Source: a virus. Taken from it: a DNA stretch of 25,155 nt. This document shows, in pieces, positions 11,224 through 24,175 of the stretch (its first letter is position 1; each line of letters opens with the position of its first letter). The notes under the pieces were generated by a model that was not told the DNA's origin, made no database searches, and saw only the letters and a list, made by a program, of their open reading frames with translations. The stretch covers positions 1 to 25,155 of the IMG/VR virus record IMGVR_UViG_3300042434_000001, one strand, 5' to 3'. Position numbers and translations under genes: made by a program.

Positions 11224-11580
11224 TTAAGCCCCTTGAGTTACTTCAACCCATGACAATGTTGGCTCATCCCATTTGTACATCTTGTCGTCTGTCGGCATAG
11301 GTGTTGGGGCATCCCACAAATATGTCGTAGAGTTCTTAGTCCAAGACGCAAATGGCTGTGGAGGGGCAAAGCCTGTTCCATCCCATGTGTAACCAATGCC
11401 AGCGTAGTTCTTATGCAATGGAGTTCCACCATTAGCATGAACACCGCCATGTGTGTTGTAACTGGTCTGAATCCACAATGATGGGTCACCCCAAGGATGC
11501 CCCTCAATGTTCAATGTTTCCCACTCAACTACATTCACTTCTGTAACGATGCCGTTGATGACTTTTGCAAAATGTGCCAT
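11224..11580 (-). CDS. MAHFAK-type phage fibre-associated protein, 118 aa
   Basis: I choose the ATG at 11578-11580 because AAGGAAATAGAC precedes it and the longer frame would overlap the previous gene. The product begins MAHFAKVINGIVTEVNVVEW, a start seen in many cyanophage and marine or freshwater phage proteins, and continues with Trp/Gly/Pro-rich beta segments (NYAGIGYTWDGTGF, ASWTKNSTTYLWDAPTPMP, YKWDEPTLSW). Regularly spaced Trp residues suggest a small fibre or carbohydrate-binding domain. It sits between the two glycine-rich paralogues, so it is probably part of the same adhesive structure or its assembly. Function not established. Confidence 0.75.
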   Translation of the reverse strand: MAHFAKVINGIVTEVNVVEWETLNIEGHPWGDPSLWIQTSYNTHGGVHANGGTPLHKNYAGIGYTWDGTGFAPPQPFASWTKNSTTYLWDAPTPMPTDDKMYKWDEPTLSWVEVTQGA

Positions 11581-15549: not shown

Positions 15550-16530
15550 TTAGGTCTGAATTGTTGAGTTCAAGTCATAGACAGCGCCATGAGCTTTCTC
15601 ATTCTTGATCTTCAAGCCCCACTCACACAAGAGCATACGCTTCTCGGCATCACCTGTCTTAGCCAGTTCAACTGTCTGGAAGGGACGCAGATAAGCAACT
15701 GATGCGTACTCAGGATCAAGCACAAAAACATCACGCTCACGTTGGAACCTGTTGGCAACAATGCTCACGTTTCCGAAGTCGCTGACATAAACATCTGCGG
15801 CCCCGATGATAGTTGAAGGCTTTGCGCCTGTAACATTGAAACGCTGACCAGCAATACCAGCCATCTTAGACAAGTTCTGCTTGTTAACAGGACCAGCCAT
15901 AACGATAGATGGGTTGCCACCTTCTGTCCACACCTTCTGAATTACGTCTTTCAGCAATGCTTCGCTGAATGAACGCAAGTTAGTAGTTGTAGCATCAGTA
16001 CGAGCTGCATCAGGGATAGTGGTGTATGAAGGATCAGAACCACCAGTACCTTCGCTAGTATTGGTCTTCAAGAAGGCCAACAAAGCGCCTGATTTACGGG
16101 CAGATGACGTAGAACCAGCGGCAGCGGCTTGGTTAGCCAACATTGTGGCCTCCATGTCACGCTTAATTTCCGCAGATTTTTTGGCCATTTGATAGCTCAA
16201 TTCTGAGCGACGACCTGCCTTGTCAACCGCTTCCAATGTACCAGCAATGATTACATCCTTACGGCTAATCTGGGTGTAGTTGCCCAAACGAACTGTAGCT
16301 GTAACTGCTGTGAAAGAGGTGATGTCATCGCCCTCGATCTGTGCATTAGTTGTGATTGCAGCGGCCAAATCATCAGTCTGCCACTCAAAGAAAGTGTTGG
16401 TGACGTTCTCACGGCCAACATTGCTCATAAATGGAGTCTCTTCTGGTGAGATCTGATAAATGACGTTTGAAAGATCTTCCCGTACACCCTTTGCGTCAAA
16501 GCGGGTGTAGGTGTTTGTAATAGCAGCCAT
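15550..16530 (-). CDS. Major capsid protein, SU10 type, 326 aa
   Basis: The sequence begins ITNTYTRFDAKGVREDLSNV and IYQISPEETPFMSNVGRENV, a hallmark of SU10-like (DUF5309) capsid proteins. Following regions WQTDDLAAAITTNAQIEG, RLGNYTQISRKDVIIAGTLE and RRSELSYQMAKKSAEIKRDM form the expected long spine-helix area; the C-terminal half contains SIVMAGPVNKQNLSKMAG and VYVSDFGNVSIVANRFQRER typical of the HK97-fold A and P domains. Length 326 is normal. AAGGAATTAAC precedes the ATG. The gene follows a scaffold gene and precedes a strong terminator, consistent with high expression. It builds the icosahedral head. Confidence 0.9.
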   Translation of the reverse strand: MAAITNTYTRFDAKGVREDLSNVIYQISPEETPFMSNVGRENVTNTFFEWQTDDLAAAITTNAQIEGDDITSFTAVTATVRLGNYTQISRKDVIIAGTLEAVDKAGRRSELSYQMAKKSAEIKRDMEATMLANQAAAAGSTSSARKSGALLAFLKTNTSEGTGGSDPSYTTIPDAARTDATTTNLRSFSEALLKDVIQKVWTEGGNPSIVMAGPVNKQNLSKMAGIAGQRFNVTGAKPSTIIGAADVYVSDFGNVSIVANRFQRERDVFVLDPEYASVAYLRPFQTVELAKTGDAEKRMLLCEWGLKIKNEKAHGAVYDLNSTIQT

Positions 16531-17820: not shown

Positions 17821-19968
17821 TTACATCATTGGTTGGGGCTGTTGAGGTACTTGGCTCATTGCAGCTTGTTGACGGATTAATTCTCGGTCTTTATTCATTG
17901 CGGCTTCTATTTCCGCACTTTGAATTTGTACACCATATTTCAATTCTAGCTCATATCTACGCAAAATACCATCTTGTTCAATACGATCTCGCTCACGATC
18001 ATCAGACATAATCATTTTTTCACGATCTAATTGCAATTCTGCGGCTTTCTTTTGAATATCCGCTTGAATAGATTGTGCCTGTACTTGAGCCAACATCTCC
18101 TCTGGAGTAAGCTTTGGCTCTGGAGGTGGTGGCAACTGGAAGTCAACAGGTAATTGGTTAAAGTAATTCTGTGAATCCTTAATACCCGCCAACTGAAGCA
18201 TCTTGGTTAATGTGTTTGTATACTGTGGTAAAGAAACAACAGGGTTATTAACACCAGTTTCTTTAATCAGCATTTCTTGACGCAGTGCGACTTGATTCAA
18301 GATATTGATTCGGTCTTCAAGAGTGCCATCACCTACGCCAACATTAACAATGACATCCATATTGGCATCCCAAGAACGTGGGTCAATAGGCACAAATGTA
18401 TTACGCAAACGAATCATTCGGGCTTTATCTTGGTTCTCAATAACGAGTTTCAAGATACCAGTAAATAGTTTACGCAAACCAGTTTCAGCAAAGATACGGG
18501 CAATCATCTCAATGTGCTGATGGGCGGCATTAACAGTTGCAGATACTGCGGCTTTGGTAGTGCTTTGTAAAGCATCTGCATCTAGCCCTGCTGCGGCCTT
18601 AGAAATGCCTGTACGGGTCTGTTTAATGTCATCCAAGTAGTCAAGCATAGGGAATGCGGCCTGACCAACAAATGGAGTTGTAAAGGGTTGCACCATGCCT
18701 GGCGCTCTCATGCGAATAACAGCACCAACTTCTGTATTAAGCACATCTTCCATGTTGGCCTGTCCCTCAACGATGGCTGTGCGAGGGTGAATGGATTGAG
18801 CCAAAGAATCTAAGATGCCACGTTGGACATTGGACTTGATACGCTGAATATCCATGACCACATCAGCAGGACACATACCAAAAAAGGTATGGGGTTCTGG
18901 GTCTGGGCAGAAGGCGGCAAACTGTCTGTCATCAACAATTTCGTTTCGCAGAACTTTATTGCCAGTACCTACTGTGCAAATTCTACGCATCTCAGCAATG
19001 CCATCGCCATCAAAGTCTACCTTTAAGTAGCCTTCAATGTAGAGAACACTCTTGCTTGATGGATCACCATTGTTTGCAGTACTGATAACAGCAAATGGGT
19101 TACGGGCTATGTACTCTTCGTTGTTGTCAAAGTCATTCCCATTACCTGCAACCTCAACCATTTCATCATAGTCATAACCCATTGCGACTAGATCGGAAAC
19201 AGTCTTCATTGTGCGGTGGCCAACAAAGGTAGCCTCTTCAACCGACTTTGCTCTGCGGTCAATCAGGAACTCTTCTGGGGGTAGAGCCTCAATCTTTACC
19301 TTGCCTGACTTGATTCTGCGCTTGATCTCCACATCGTACATCATGGGTGGTGGAGTCATAATGCCTTGGGCATCGTTCATTGGCTGAGTGCCAGGTACTG
19401 GATACTCACGCACCGCAGAAATCTCAATGTTTGGGTCTTGAGTTAAGAACATCATTGTCTGCTCATCAAGCATAGAGAATGATTCTGCTTTAACTTCTAC
19501 AGACTCATCCCACCAATACTTCACGATACCAACTTTGCGTACCAAAGCATCTTTGAATGCCGAGTGAAGAATCTTAAAGCCTTGGTTATCACGCTTGAAA
19601 ATAAAGTCCACATAGTCTGTAGCTTGTTCAGCAGACTGTACATCTTCTGGTCCTTGGGGGGCAAACTCAACCACACGCTCTGGACCAAAGAAAATACGCA
19701 TCAGGCTTGGCAATATGCCTTGCACAGTATCACGTACATCCATTGATACTACTTGTGAACGGCCTTCTTCTTCATCACCAAAGGGTTGGCCATAATAGTA
19801 TTCAGTAGCCAACGCACGATTGCCACCAATGTCATCATCTATGAAAGAAATGGCATCATTAATTTCAGCAGAGATAACGCCTTGAAGTTGCTCTTCTGAC
19901 ATTACCTCATCTTCTTGCATCTCGCCCTGCAAGGTTTCGGCCATCAACATTGGGTTTTCTTGTTTCAT
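17821..19968 (-). CDS. Portal protein, P22/SU10 type, 715 aa
   Basis: The N-terminal region carries the usual portal signature: DAISFIDDDIGGNRALATEY, YYGQPFGDEEEGRSQVVSMD and RDTVQGILPSLMRIFFGPER, followed by EQATDYVDFIFKRDNQGFK (about 115-135) and IVKYWWDES. The mid part includes LPPEEFLIDRRAKSVEEATF and the wing and stem region with HIEMIARIFAETGLRKLFTG. The C-terminal 110 residues are a Gln/Glu/Lys/Arg-rich helix (MLAQVQAQSIQADIQKKAAE) that can form the barrel. Length 715 matches P22 (about 725). TAAGGAATAAAA precedes the ATG. It forms the dodecameric DNA entry ring and docks the terminase and adaptor. Confidence 0.92.
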   Translation of the reverse strand: MKQENPMLMAETLQGEMQEDEVMSEEQLQGVISAEINDAISFIDDDIGGNRALATEYYYGQPFGDEEEGRSQVVSMDVRDTVQGILPSLMRIFFGPERVVEFAPQGPEDVQSAEQATDYVDFIFKRDNQGFKILHSAFKDALVRKVGIVKYWWDESVEVKAESFSMLDEQTMMFLTQDPNIEISAVREYPVPGTQPMNDAQGIMTPPPMMYDVEIKRRIKSGKVKIEALPPEEFLIDRRAKSVEEATFVGHRTMKTVSDLVAMGYDYDEMVEVAGNGNDFDNNEEYIARNPFAVISTANNGDPSSKSVLYIEGYLKVDFDGDGIAEMRRICTVGTGNKVLRNEIVDDRQFAAFCPDPEPHTFFGMCPADVVMDIQRIKSNVQRGILDSLAQSIHPRTAIVEGQANMEDVLNTEVGAVIRMRAPGMVQPFTTPFVGQAAFPMLDYLDDIKQTRTGISKAAAGLDADALQSTTKAAVSATVNAAHQHIEMIARIFAETGLRKLFTGILKLVIENQDKARMIRLRNTFVPIDPRSWDANMDVIVNVGVGDGTLEDRINILNQVALRQEMLIKETGVNNPVVSLPQYTNTLTKMLQLAGIKDSQNYFNQLPVDFQLPPPPEPKLTPEEMLAQVQAQSIQADIQKKAAELQLDREKMIMSDDRERDRIEQDGILRRYELELKYGVQIQSAEIEAAMNKDRELIRQQAAMSQVPQQPQPMM

Positions 19969-21488: not shown

Positions 21489-22886
21489 TCAGACCAATCC
21501 TCGGATCAACCTTTTAATCGGTTTACCCCAAGATAGATTAGATCCCCATGAGATGGTGGCGGCATCTGAGGCAAATGTCAAGACAAAAGCATCAGCCATA
21601 TCAGGAGATTTCAATCCCCGTCTACGAATATCATCCTTAGATTCAATTTTTATCTTGCCGTTAGAGGTAAAGGTGTACCTAACAGTGGCTAGTTCAGCAA
21701 TGAAATCCTCATTGTTAGGTATCTTGCAGTCACGTTTTTCTAGCCAAGCCTTGGTTTTATGCCAGAGTTCTGCTCTCAGGTTTAAATACGTCCCACCCAT
21801 AGCGGGGCTTTCGGATACGTTAATTCCCCGACATGGCAGTTTTAGTTCTCTGAGTCGGTCAACAACACCCGCACCGAGTCCGATAGAGTCAACCAGAATC
21901 TCTGCGGGTCTACTCTTGTGGTCACAGGCTTCGTATTGGGCGACTACTGCACCTGTTAACTGCATCAGATCCAAGTTCCTCCACCTCTCAAGAGTGTGTA
22001 CAACATTAGACTGACGTTTACATAGAACTGAAGAATCGGAGCCAAAACGAGCCACATCGAGTCCCCAAATGATCGGAGCGTCTTCATAAGCTCTTGTATC
22101 CCTGTGTTTAGCAGACTCAAGTAACTCCATAGGAATAATCGTGTCATCATCGCTCCTTGGAAACTCACCCAGAACCCTGATCCGATAGGCGTTACTTTCC
22201 TCGCCATAGCGGGATTTCATGTCTTCTACGTACTCTTTACTCACCCGAGTAGAGTCAATACAGGATACTCTCTTAGTCCACCACTCATCCTTTAGTCGAT
22301 TATGCGTATCAAAGAAGAAGCCAGAAGACCTAACTGGATTGCCTAACAGGATGGTCAAAGCATTATGGCCAGACATAGAACCCGCAGCAGCCTCGAATAC
22401 TGCCTCTGGAACACCAGAAGCCTCATCTGCAACCAACATGACGTTCTCGGAGTGGACACCTTGTAGGGCTTCGGGTTGTTCAGCACGAGATGTTCGGGCA
22501 GAGATAAACGCCTCGGTAGCGGAAGCCTTGAGTTCTATCCTCTCTTGTTTGACATCAAGCAAGTCTTGGATAGGTTTGGGTAGTTCTTTAACCCACCTCT
22601 TTAGTTCGGCAAACAAAGCGTCATACAGTTGGGCAGAAGTAGGGGCAGTAACTACGACCTTAACTGGATACCTGGTCAACAGGAACCATAGCATTGCCCA
22701 AGAAGCTGTTGTGGATTTACCCACCCCGTGACCAGACCTGATTGAAATCTTGCGTTCACCAGAGGCTACAGCATTAAGGAAGTCTTGTTGCCAATCATCA
22801 GGCTCTACTCCTAAGACCTCTTTGACAAACAGAACAGGGTCATTCCTGTACAGGGTAATGAACTGTATGAAGGGGTTATTAGCCAT
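21489..22886 (-). CDS. terL: Terminase large subunit, 465 aa
   Basis: The packaging motor ATPase and nuclease. ATPase: an adenine-contact-like DDWQQDFL (30-37), Walker A SGHGVGKST (51-59), VVVTAPT (77-83), Walker B VMLVADE (149-155) with catalytic Glu 155, and coupling motif TILLGNP (178-184). Nuclease: an RNase-H-like fold with Asp 277 in IIWGLDVARFG, a second acid in ILVDSIGLGAGVVDRL (about 333-348), and a third in SPDMADAFVLTF near the C-terminus. Length 465 is normal. It overlaps the small subunit gene by 8 nt, so the two are coupled. It docks on the portal and cuts the concatemer. Confidence 0.95.
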   Translation of the reverse strand: MANNPFIQFITLYRNDPVLFVKEVLGVEPDDWQQDFLNAVASGERKISIRSGHGVGKSTTASWAMLWFLLTRYPVKVVVTAPTSAQLYDALFAELKRWVKELPKPIQDLLDVKQERIELKASATEAFISARTSRAEQPEALQGVHSENVMLVADEASGVPEAVFEAAAGSMSGHNALTILLGNPVRSSGFFFDTHNRLKDEWWTKRVSCIDSTRVSKEYVEDMKSRYGEESNAYRIRVLGEFPRSDDDTIIPMELLESAKHRDTRAYEDAPIIWGLDVARFGSDSSVLCKRQSNVVHTLERWRNLDLMQLTGAVVAQYEACDHKSRPAEILVDSIGLGAGVVDRLRELKLPCRGINVSESPAMGGTYLNLRAELWHKTKAWLEKRDCKIPNNEDFIAELATVRYTFTSNGKIKIESKDDIRRRGLKSPDMADAFVLTFASDAATISWGSNLSWGKPIKRLIRGLV

Positions 22887-23328
22887 TGTTTTCCAAAGTT
22901 GTCACCACTTCAGCCTTACCCATATGCTTTAAAGCTTGTAGGTGTAGATCACCCAAAGAGATATTGACTTGGGTTTTAGCAGTGTCTCCGTAGTTCTCAG
23001 GGTCAAGCTTGGAGGCCATCCACTTACGAGTATCGACTTGGAGTCTGGCTTTGTTAACTCCACTGTTAGAAGTCTCATCAGCCTCATCCGCAATCTCTAG
23101 AGCCTCTTCTGCCAGTTTCTCAGCCTTTAGCTTCCTAGCAGCAAGTACTGCATCTCTACGCTCATCAGTATGGTTTATCCAGAAAGAAAGCATGGGCCTA
23201 GAACACTCTATGAACTCTGCCAAGCGTCCTATGGTCATTCCTTGAGAGATATGTGCGGTAACGAACTCTATCCCTCCTAGTTCCTCTATCTTCTTCTCCA
23301 ACGCTCTCCTCATAGGAAATCCAGCCAT
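22879..23328 (-). CDS. terS: Terminase small subunit, 149 aa
   Basis: The N-terminus has a helix-turn-helix-like region (ISQGMTIGRLAEFIECSRPM, LSFWINH, about 28-54) for pac/cos DNA recognition. The middle (ARKLKAEKLAEEALEIADEA) is a helical oligomerisation segment, and VNKARLQVDTRKWMASKLDP plus ENYGD is a signature of many phage small terminases. The C-terminal part likely binds the large subunit. CAAGGAGAAGATATG gives a strong start at 23328. It is the first gene of the minus-strand late region and opens directly onto the divergent intergenic region. Confidence 0.88.
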   Translation of the reverse strand: MAGFPMRRALEKKIEELGGIEFVTAHISQGMTIGRLAEFIECSRPMLSFWINHTDERRDAVLAARKLKAEKLAEEALEIADEADETSNSGVNKARLQVDTRKWMASKLDPENYGDTAKTQVNISLGDLHLQALKHMGKAEVVTTLENNG

Positions 23329-23441: not shown

Positions 23442-23475
23442 ATGTGTGTTTATGTAGATCCATGTGTGTTTATGT
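23442..23475 (+). repeat. Two 14-bp direct repeats with 20-bp period
   Basis: ATGTGTGTTTATGT occurs exactly at 23442-23455 and 23462-23475. The 20-bp centre-to-centre spacing is about two helical turns, so a protein could bind both copies on the same DNA face. Confidence 0.85.
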
Positions 23476-23525: not shown

Positions 23526-23590
23526 GTTAGTGAGTGCTCACTTCGCTAAAGTTAGTGAGTGCCAACTAACTTAGCCAGGTTAGTGAGTGC
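23526..23590 (+). repeat. Three GTTAGTGAGTGC direct repeats (operator or iteron candidates)
   Basis: Identical 12-mers lie at 23526-23537, 23551-23562 and 23579-23590 (spacings 25 and 28). Each copy is part of a different imperfect inverted repeat: GTGAG-TG-CTCAC in the first, GTTAGT-N8-ACTAAC in the second, GTGAG-TG-CTTAC in the third. This looks like a repeated protein binding site. Confidence 0.85.
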
Positions 23591-23606
23591 TTACTTACTT
23601 CTAGAT

Positions 23607-23625
23607 GCGAATGATTCTCATTTAC
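23607..23625. promoter_or_regulatory. Fur-box-like palindrome
   Basis: GCGAATGATTCTCATTTAC contains the inverted repeat AATGA-TTC-TCATT and agrees with the 19-bp Fur consensus at 13 positions by hand alignment. Whether a host Fur protein binds here is unknown. Confidence 0.35.
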
Positions 23626-23745: not shown

Positions 23746-23789
23746 TATCCCCTTATGTATCCTTCTATATCCCCTTATCTATCCCTTAC
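23746..23789 (+). repeat. Repeated TATCCCCTTAT units
   Basis: TATCCCCTTAT occurs at 23746-23756 and 23768-23778 (22-bp period), followed by the related TATCCCTTAC at 23780-23789, within a pyrimidine-rich plus strand. Confidence 0.7.
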
Positions 23790-23906: not shown

Positions 23907-23986
23907 GTACTAATGGTTTTGCTGTTTTTAATTGCTATCATAAATGCACATTCAATCCGAATGTATCTACTAAATAGGTGTTCACA

Positions 23987-24175
23987 ATGACAAAATCCGA
24001 ATCAAAAGAAGTCGCTAGATCTGTTCAATATAGCGAAGCAGGCTTAGGTAAGGACTATCTCGCTAGGGCTTTATCGGCCCTTATCCGCTCCGCTAGATCT
24101 AGCAAGTCCCAAAATGAAATTATGGCAATAGCTGTAGCGCATGGTGTTACATCTAACCCTGAATTCATCGCATAA
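23987..24175 (+). CDS. Small early protein, 62 aa
   Basis: I choose the ATG at 23987 because AGGTG lies 7-8 nt upstream; the longer frame begins at a GTG inside that ribosome site. The product (TKSESKEVARSVQYSEAGLG, KDYLARALSALIRSARSSKS) is helical, rich in Ser, Ala and Arg, with a C-terminal segment NEIMAIAVAHGVTSNPEF. It is the first gene of the plus-strand block. No family recognised. A small helical protein at the head of an early operon could be a regulator, but no helix-turn-helix is clear. Confidence 0.75.
   Translation: MTKSESKEVARSVQYSEAGLGKDYLARALSALIRSARSSKSQNEIMAIAVAHGVTSNPEFIA

Follow-up and report, generated by a model that had tools for sequence, protein, structure and literature searches.

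Tandem SlmA-type sites in phage genomes and a proposed role in blocking host cell division

The DNA under analysis is a stretch of 25,155 nucleotides (the window), which is part of a tailed phage whose TerL and portal proteins were closest to those of Manatee Spring metagenomic phages and Sinorhizobium phage phiM5. An array of three palindromes in this window, judged by its sequence, very probably consists of SlmA-type sites. We regard as evenly balanced the broader proposal that unrelated phage lineages convergently gained consensus SlmA-site arrays, and that replicating DNA, not a protein, activates nucleoid occlusion and blocks division. The occurrence of such arrays in many unrelated environmental phages suggests that plain DNA is used to seize the host's own division brake.

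The array and its surroundings

The initial annotation described three identical 12-bp repeats, and the 12-mer GTTAGTGAGTGC was found exactly at 23526-23537, 23551-23562, and 23579-23590 on the + strand, with spacings of 25 and 28. The search that it had proposed returned no further copy in the rest of the 25,155-base record, even with 2 mismatches. Its view that the repeats are not random sequence held as well; none of 200 first-order Markov copies of the window contained three non-overlapping exact 12-mers within 70 bp. Each 12-mer forms the left part of a 20-bp imperfect palindrome in which the left half is constant and the right half varies, in agreement with the earlier description of copies that pair with different flanking bases. 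The predicted sites and the neighboring genes are as follows.

23526-23545, + strand: predicted SlmA-type site 1, GTTAGTGAGTGCTCACTTCG, holding 12-mer copy 1
23551-23570, + strand: predicted SlmA-type site 2, GTTAGTGAGTGCCAACTAAC, holding 12-mer copy 2
23579-23598, + strand: predicted SlmA-type site 3, GTTAGTGAGTGCTTACTTAC, holding 12-mer copy 3
22879-23328, - strand: terminase small subunit gene terS (phrog_1482; Pfam Sf6_terminase), first gene of the leftward block
21489-22886, - strand: terminase large subunit gene terL (phrog_2)
17821-19968, leftward block: portal gene
15550-16530, leftward block: major head protein gene
23978-24175, + strand: first rightward small ORF, 65 aa as listed from GTG, no known family

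The array lies approximately 200 bp upstream of terS, which starts at 23328. The surrounding intergenic region of 650 bp separates the leftward terS-terL-portal block from small rightward ORFs that begin at about 23978. The first of these ORFs (23978-24175), on the side of the array opposite terS, is kept in relatives. Relatives were also where the initial annotation would have looked for the repeats, and there they were present; in the alignment of the eight closest sequences, all three sites were kept in 8/8, and the array was among the best-conserved intergenic stretches. The sequence of site 3 drifts among these relatives, yet it remains a site. Nothing matched when the window was scanned for Rfam families and tRNAs.

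Several other features were recorded in the window. The same intergenic region holds extra short direct repeats at 23442-23455 and 23462-23475, and at 23746-23762 and 23768-23784 (sequences ATGTGTGTTTATGT and TATCCCCTTATSTATCC). Adjoining the array, GCGAATGATTCTCATTTAC at 23607-23625 resembles a Fur box and is mostly conserved in relatives and partly repeated in L007 and L020. A Fur box at 23607 was nevertheless rejected, as the 13/19 identity to the Fur consensus was not above the best chance matches in the window. At 11379-11476, 98 bp share 89.8% nucleotide identity with Roseobacter phage CRP-207, whereas the rest of the genome is dissimilar; this stretch perhaps reflects recent exchange. 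At the right end of the window, an ORF clustered with a Gp88-family gene (PF17338), which related phages have on the array's early side (L004:5906-6688 and L061:791-1702).

Arrays in other phages

The IMG/VR scan for two tandem copies retrieved 17 contigs, and reading them revealed that the real unit is the 20-bp palindrome GTTAGTRAGYRCTYACTAAC, of which the window copies are imperfect versions. A pattern of the palindrome followed by a second half-site matched 35 contigs, and a pattern with fixed outer halves and a free centre matched 24, whereas the backward-read control patterns gave 0 and 0 matches. In total, about 68 contigs, most of them fragments, carried arrays of 2-8 palindromes with the consensus GTWAGTRAGYRCTYACTWAC. 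In the free-centre scan, the centre was GYRC in 40 of the 44 good sites; hence, the centre is constrained too. The spacing between units in distinct arrays was mostly 22-30 bp, with a second class of 37-42.

The array contigs fell into seven gene-sharing groups: a large one containing the window, a T5-like one, and five more. TerL families near the arrays varied (phrog_2, phrog_38, and phrog_15); in the T5-like group, TerL shared about 50% identity with its counterpart in T5-like phages of Vibrio and E. coli. Most groups have the array immediately upstream of terS or terL. In the T5-like group, however, it is not beside the terminase but several kb from terL, between paralogous genes weakly similar to T5 D5-type regulators.

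The early region of close relatives holds additional SlmA-like sites, a few kb away from the main array (three at L018:3007-3082, two at L017:709-785, one at L004:5192, and one at L007:11); the window ends before the equivalent place. Some arrays also contain a 16-bp palindrome of the GTTAGTGGYCACTAAC type (L008:6184 and 6207; L034:756 and 808; L055:5184 and 5208), with the outer half-sites of the 20-bp unit and a centre 4 bp shorter. This shorter palindrome might represent an SlmA site that is half occupied or spaced differently.

Short-query blastn found no arrays in annotated phages and plasmids. In Rhizobium phage V1VFA-S, an intergenic region (L101:3990-4024) holds a good SlmA-like site that overlaps a weaker one, and Klebsiella phage Bp5 and MW202697 have isolated sites. 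The whole records of the known relatives MW202879, phiM5, Venkman, MW202711, MW202496, MJing1, and C72C1 contained no array, nor did the terminase regions of DSL-LC05, MW202483, and MW202898.

The binding protein and its chromosomal sites

Published SlmA sites include SBScons GTAAGTGAGCGCTCACTTAC, SBS17 GTTAGTGACCATTTACTTAC, and SBS12 CGAAGTGAACGCTAACTCAC (PMC4423959), whose 20-bp cores we took from the oligonucleotides printed in that paper. The phage consensus matched E. coli SBScons at 20/20 positions without a mismatch. Site 3 of the window equals E. coli SBS17 at all 16 outer bases, and the right half of site 1, read backwards, is CGAAGTGA, the unusual half found in E. coli SBS12. A matrix built from 72 distinct phage sites, with the close group of the window left out, detected SBS17 at about 1e-6 and SBS12 at about 5e-6 per position. 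Chromosomal SBS of E. coli and gammaproteobacteria thus resemble the phage sites in being 20-bp palindromes with the half-site GTWAGTGA and the centre GYRC. They differ in arrangement; the chromosomal sites found here were degenerate, mostly single, and scattered over megabases, whereas the phage sites are near-consensus, clustered as 2-8 in 50-200 bp, and located in a virus genome.

We then searched bacterial chromosomes with the phage consensus, using the curated family NF007015 to select the genomes with the strongest SlmA scores. With up to 2 mismatches allowed, 18 strong-SlmA genomes gave 28 matches, compared with 5 in the backward-read control. With up to 3 mismatches, nine strong-SlmA chromosomes gave 165 against 56, whereas seven genomes without SlmA gave 8 against 25 (Fisher p 3e-8 for strong-SlmA versus SlmA-less genomes). 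Avoidance of the terminus, a known hallmark of SlmA sites (PMC3116907), was shared by the matches to the phage consensus. It was measured in three genomes whose matches were fully listed and located on one large contig with dif, the length of the contig being approximated as the genome size. The dif-proximal half of the chromosome held 0/16 matches in G371, 3/19 in G227, and 7/20 in G420, that is, 10/55 in the pooled data (p 1e-6).

One array contig, L034, falls in the SlmA-encoding betaproteobacterial MAG G001, where it may be misbinned. In 19 SlmA-encoding genomes from the class of G001, which have lower SlmA scores, no enrichment was detected at up to 3 mismatches (39 matches, 4 of them phage sites, against 34), although the aligned proteins share one recognition helix. 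Three shorter queries (the 14-mer, its 12-mer core, and the outer-half pattern) likewise did not rise above background in this class. Either the sites of this class are both weaker and fewer, or it uses SlmA differently.

A search of 28 array-bearing phage records, many of which are fragments, detected no TetR_N domain; therefore, the binder is probably a host protein, and the sequence evidence makes host SlmA the most likely one. The recognition helix VSEAALYRHF was identical in 10/10 SlmA proteins aligned, and SlmA is the TetR-like protein with that helix that beta- and gammaproteobacteria conserve. Alternatively, the array might be bound, as an operator or decoy, by a different TetR-family protein of the host that has this helix, with SlmA not being the partner. 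In bacterial genomes, exact single copies of GTTAGTGAGTGCTYACTAAC often adjoin TetR-family genes, in Actinobacteria and others, which identifies a TetR-type operator, and the lack of enriched chromosomal sites in the class of G001 points the same way. These operators share GTTAGTGAGTGCTYACTAAC with the phage sites but, unlike the phage arrays, comprise one or two sites per gene without an array and have their regulator encoded adjacently. We consider a partner other than SlmA unlikely. Three findings indicate SlmA: the consensus is identical to SBScons, enrichment is restricted to strong-SlmA chromosomes, and dif is avoided. In addition, one motif across phages of seven groups calls for a protein common to many hosts.

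The initial annotation had expected a cooperative operator or replication iterons. An array of protein-binding palindromes agrees with the former, but binding by an early phage protein is unsupported, given the absence of TetR_N from the 28 records and the correspondence of the motif to the site of a chromosomal protein, SlmA. Iterons are directly repeated sites bound by the initiator of a plasmid or phage. The tandem repeats and their intergenic position between early and late genes would suit either iterons or an operator bound by an early protein of the phage; however, the palindromes are of the TetR type and recur in phages that share no genes, with no cognate gene common to the groups. 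Iterons are accordingly unsupported, and this pair of readings is highly improbable.

A proposed division block and competing functions

The explanation we favor, with moderate confidence, is the complete mechanism in which an SlmA-site array recruits and activates SlmA and thereby blocks FtsZ-ring assembly. During infection, host SlmA, a TetR-like nucleoid-occlusion protein, would bind the array as a dimer of dimers and be switched to a form that antagonizes FtsZ. As the phage genomes multiply, SlmA-site complexes would spread through the cell, Z-ring assembly would stop, and the cell would stay undivided while virions are made. In that case, DNA rather than a phage protein would serve as the division inhibitor.

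Bound to one site, SlmA is a dimer of dimers, and in this complex it takes FtsZ polymers apart (PMC4423959). In E. coli, a multicopy plasmid bearing tandem SlmA sites brings about an SlmA-dependent lethal division block, with active SlmA complexes dispersed through the cell (PMC3573117, PMC4117426). A multiplying phage genome with 2-8 near-consensus sites could act like such a multicopy SBS plasmid, and by this analogy we infer that the array may have a division-block role. The laboratory plasmids pUC-2xSBS and p2SBSK, each with two SBS copies, likewise place tandem SlmA sites on a multicopy replicon; they are artificial and cause an SlmA-dependent division block, whereas the phage arrays are natural and a similar effect is only proposed. 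An E. coli cell has an estimated 300-400 copies of SlmA, compared with 24-52 chromosomal sites (PMC4423959). At these numbers, some tens of phage genomes would be competing for the greater part of the SlmA.

The phage division inhibitors known so far are gene products, including lambda Kil, DicB, and a T7 product acting on FtsZ (PMC3961180). The proposed outcome of the array resembles theirs, in that FtsZ-ring assembly is blocked by a phage factor, but the agent would be a DNA element. DicB also acts via a host inhibitor of FtsZ. If the model is true, a noncoding SlmA-capturing array would represent a new means of viral control over the host cell cycle, one that gene annotation does not reveal; it would also be the natural equivalent of the laboratory multicopy-SBS experiment. 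The motif may also provide a genome-level hint that the host of a phage has an SlmA-like protein. We found no papers on SlmA sites in phages in the open-access literature searched.

Some observations count against a division block. Annotated phages and the known relatives examined lack the array, and genomes from the class of G001 lack enrichment. Moreover, the array is regularly upstream of the terminase operon, and this placement hints at a function that depends on position, which a division block would not require. The sites could thus be SlmA sites at which SlmA serves as a ready-made transcription factor for the divergent early and terminase promoters, tying the expression of packaging genes to the host DNA or division state by repression or activation. 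The location of most arrays in a divergent intergenic region upstream of terS/terL fits promoter control, and SlmA can also activate transcription (PMC5519180); together, the regular site and this activity make a second use of the array possible. We consider promoter control rather unlikely. A consensus scan, which is weak evidence, detected no sigma-70-like promoter in the intergenic region of the window, the array of the T5-like group is not next to the terminase, and the number and spacing of sites vary more widely than is usual for a promoter operator.

The proximity to terminase genes of several TerL families also raises the prospect of a packaging element (pac, cos, or a terminal-repeat region) read by the small terminase or a helper host protein. 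Contigs ending less than 200 bp from the array were in mild excess (6 against 1.8 expected, p 0.01), and phiM5 has a terminal repeat just upstream of terL. We nevertheless find packaging distinctly unlikely, because one DNA motif is hard to explain with small terminases of different families, no terminal repeats were present in G212 or G202, whose array is near the contig end, and the distance of several kb to terL in the T5-like group does not fit. Among five long contigs checked for terminal repeats, three showed nothing, G211 had a dispersed repeat, and G010 had an end-to-start overlap like that of a circular assembly.
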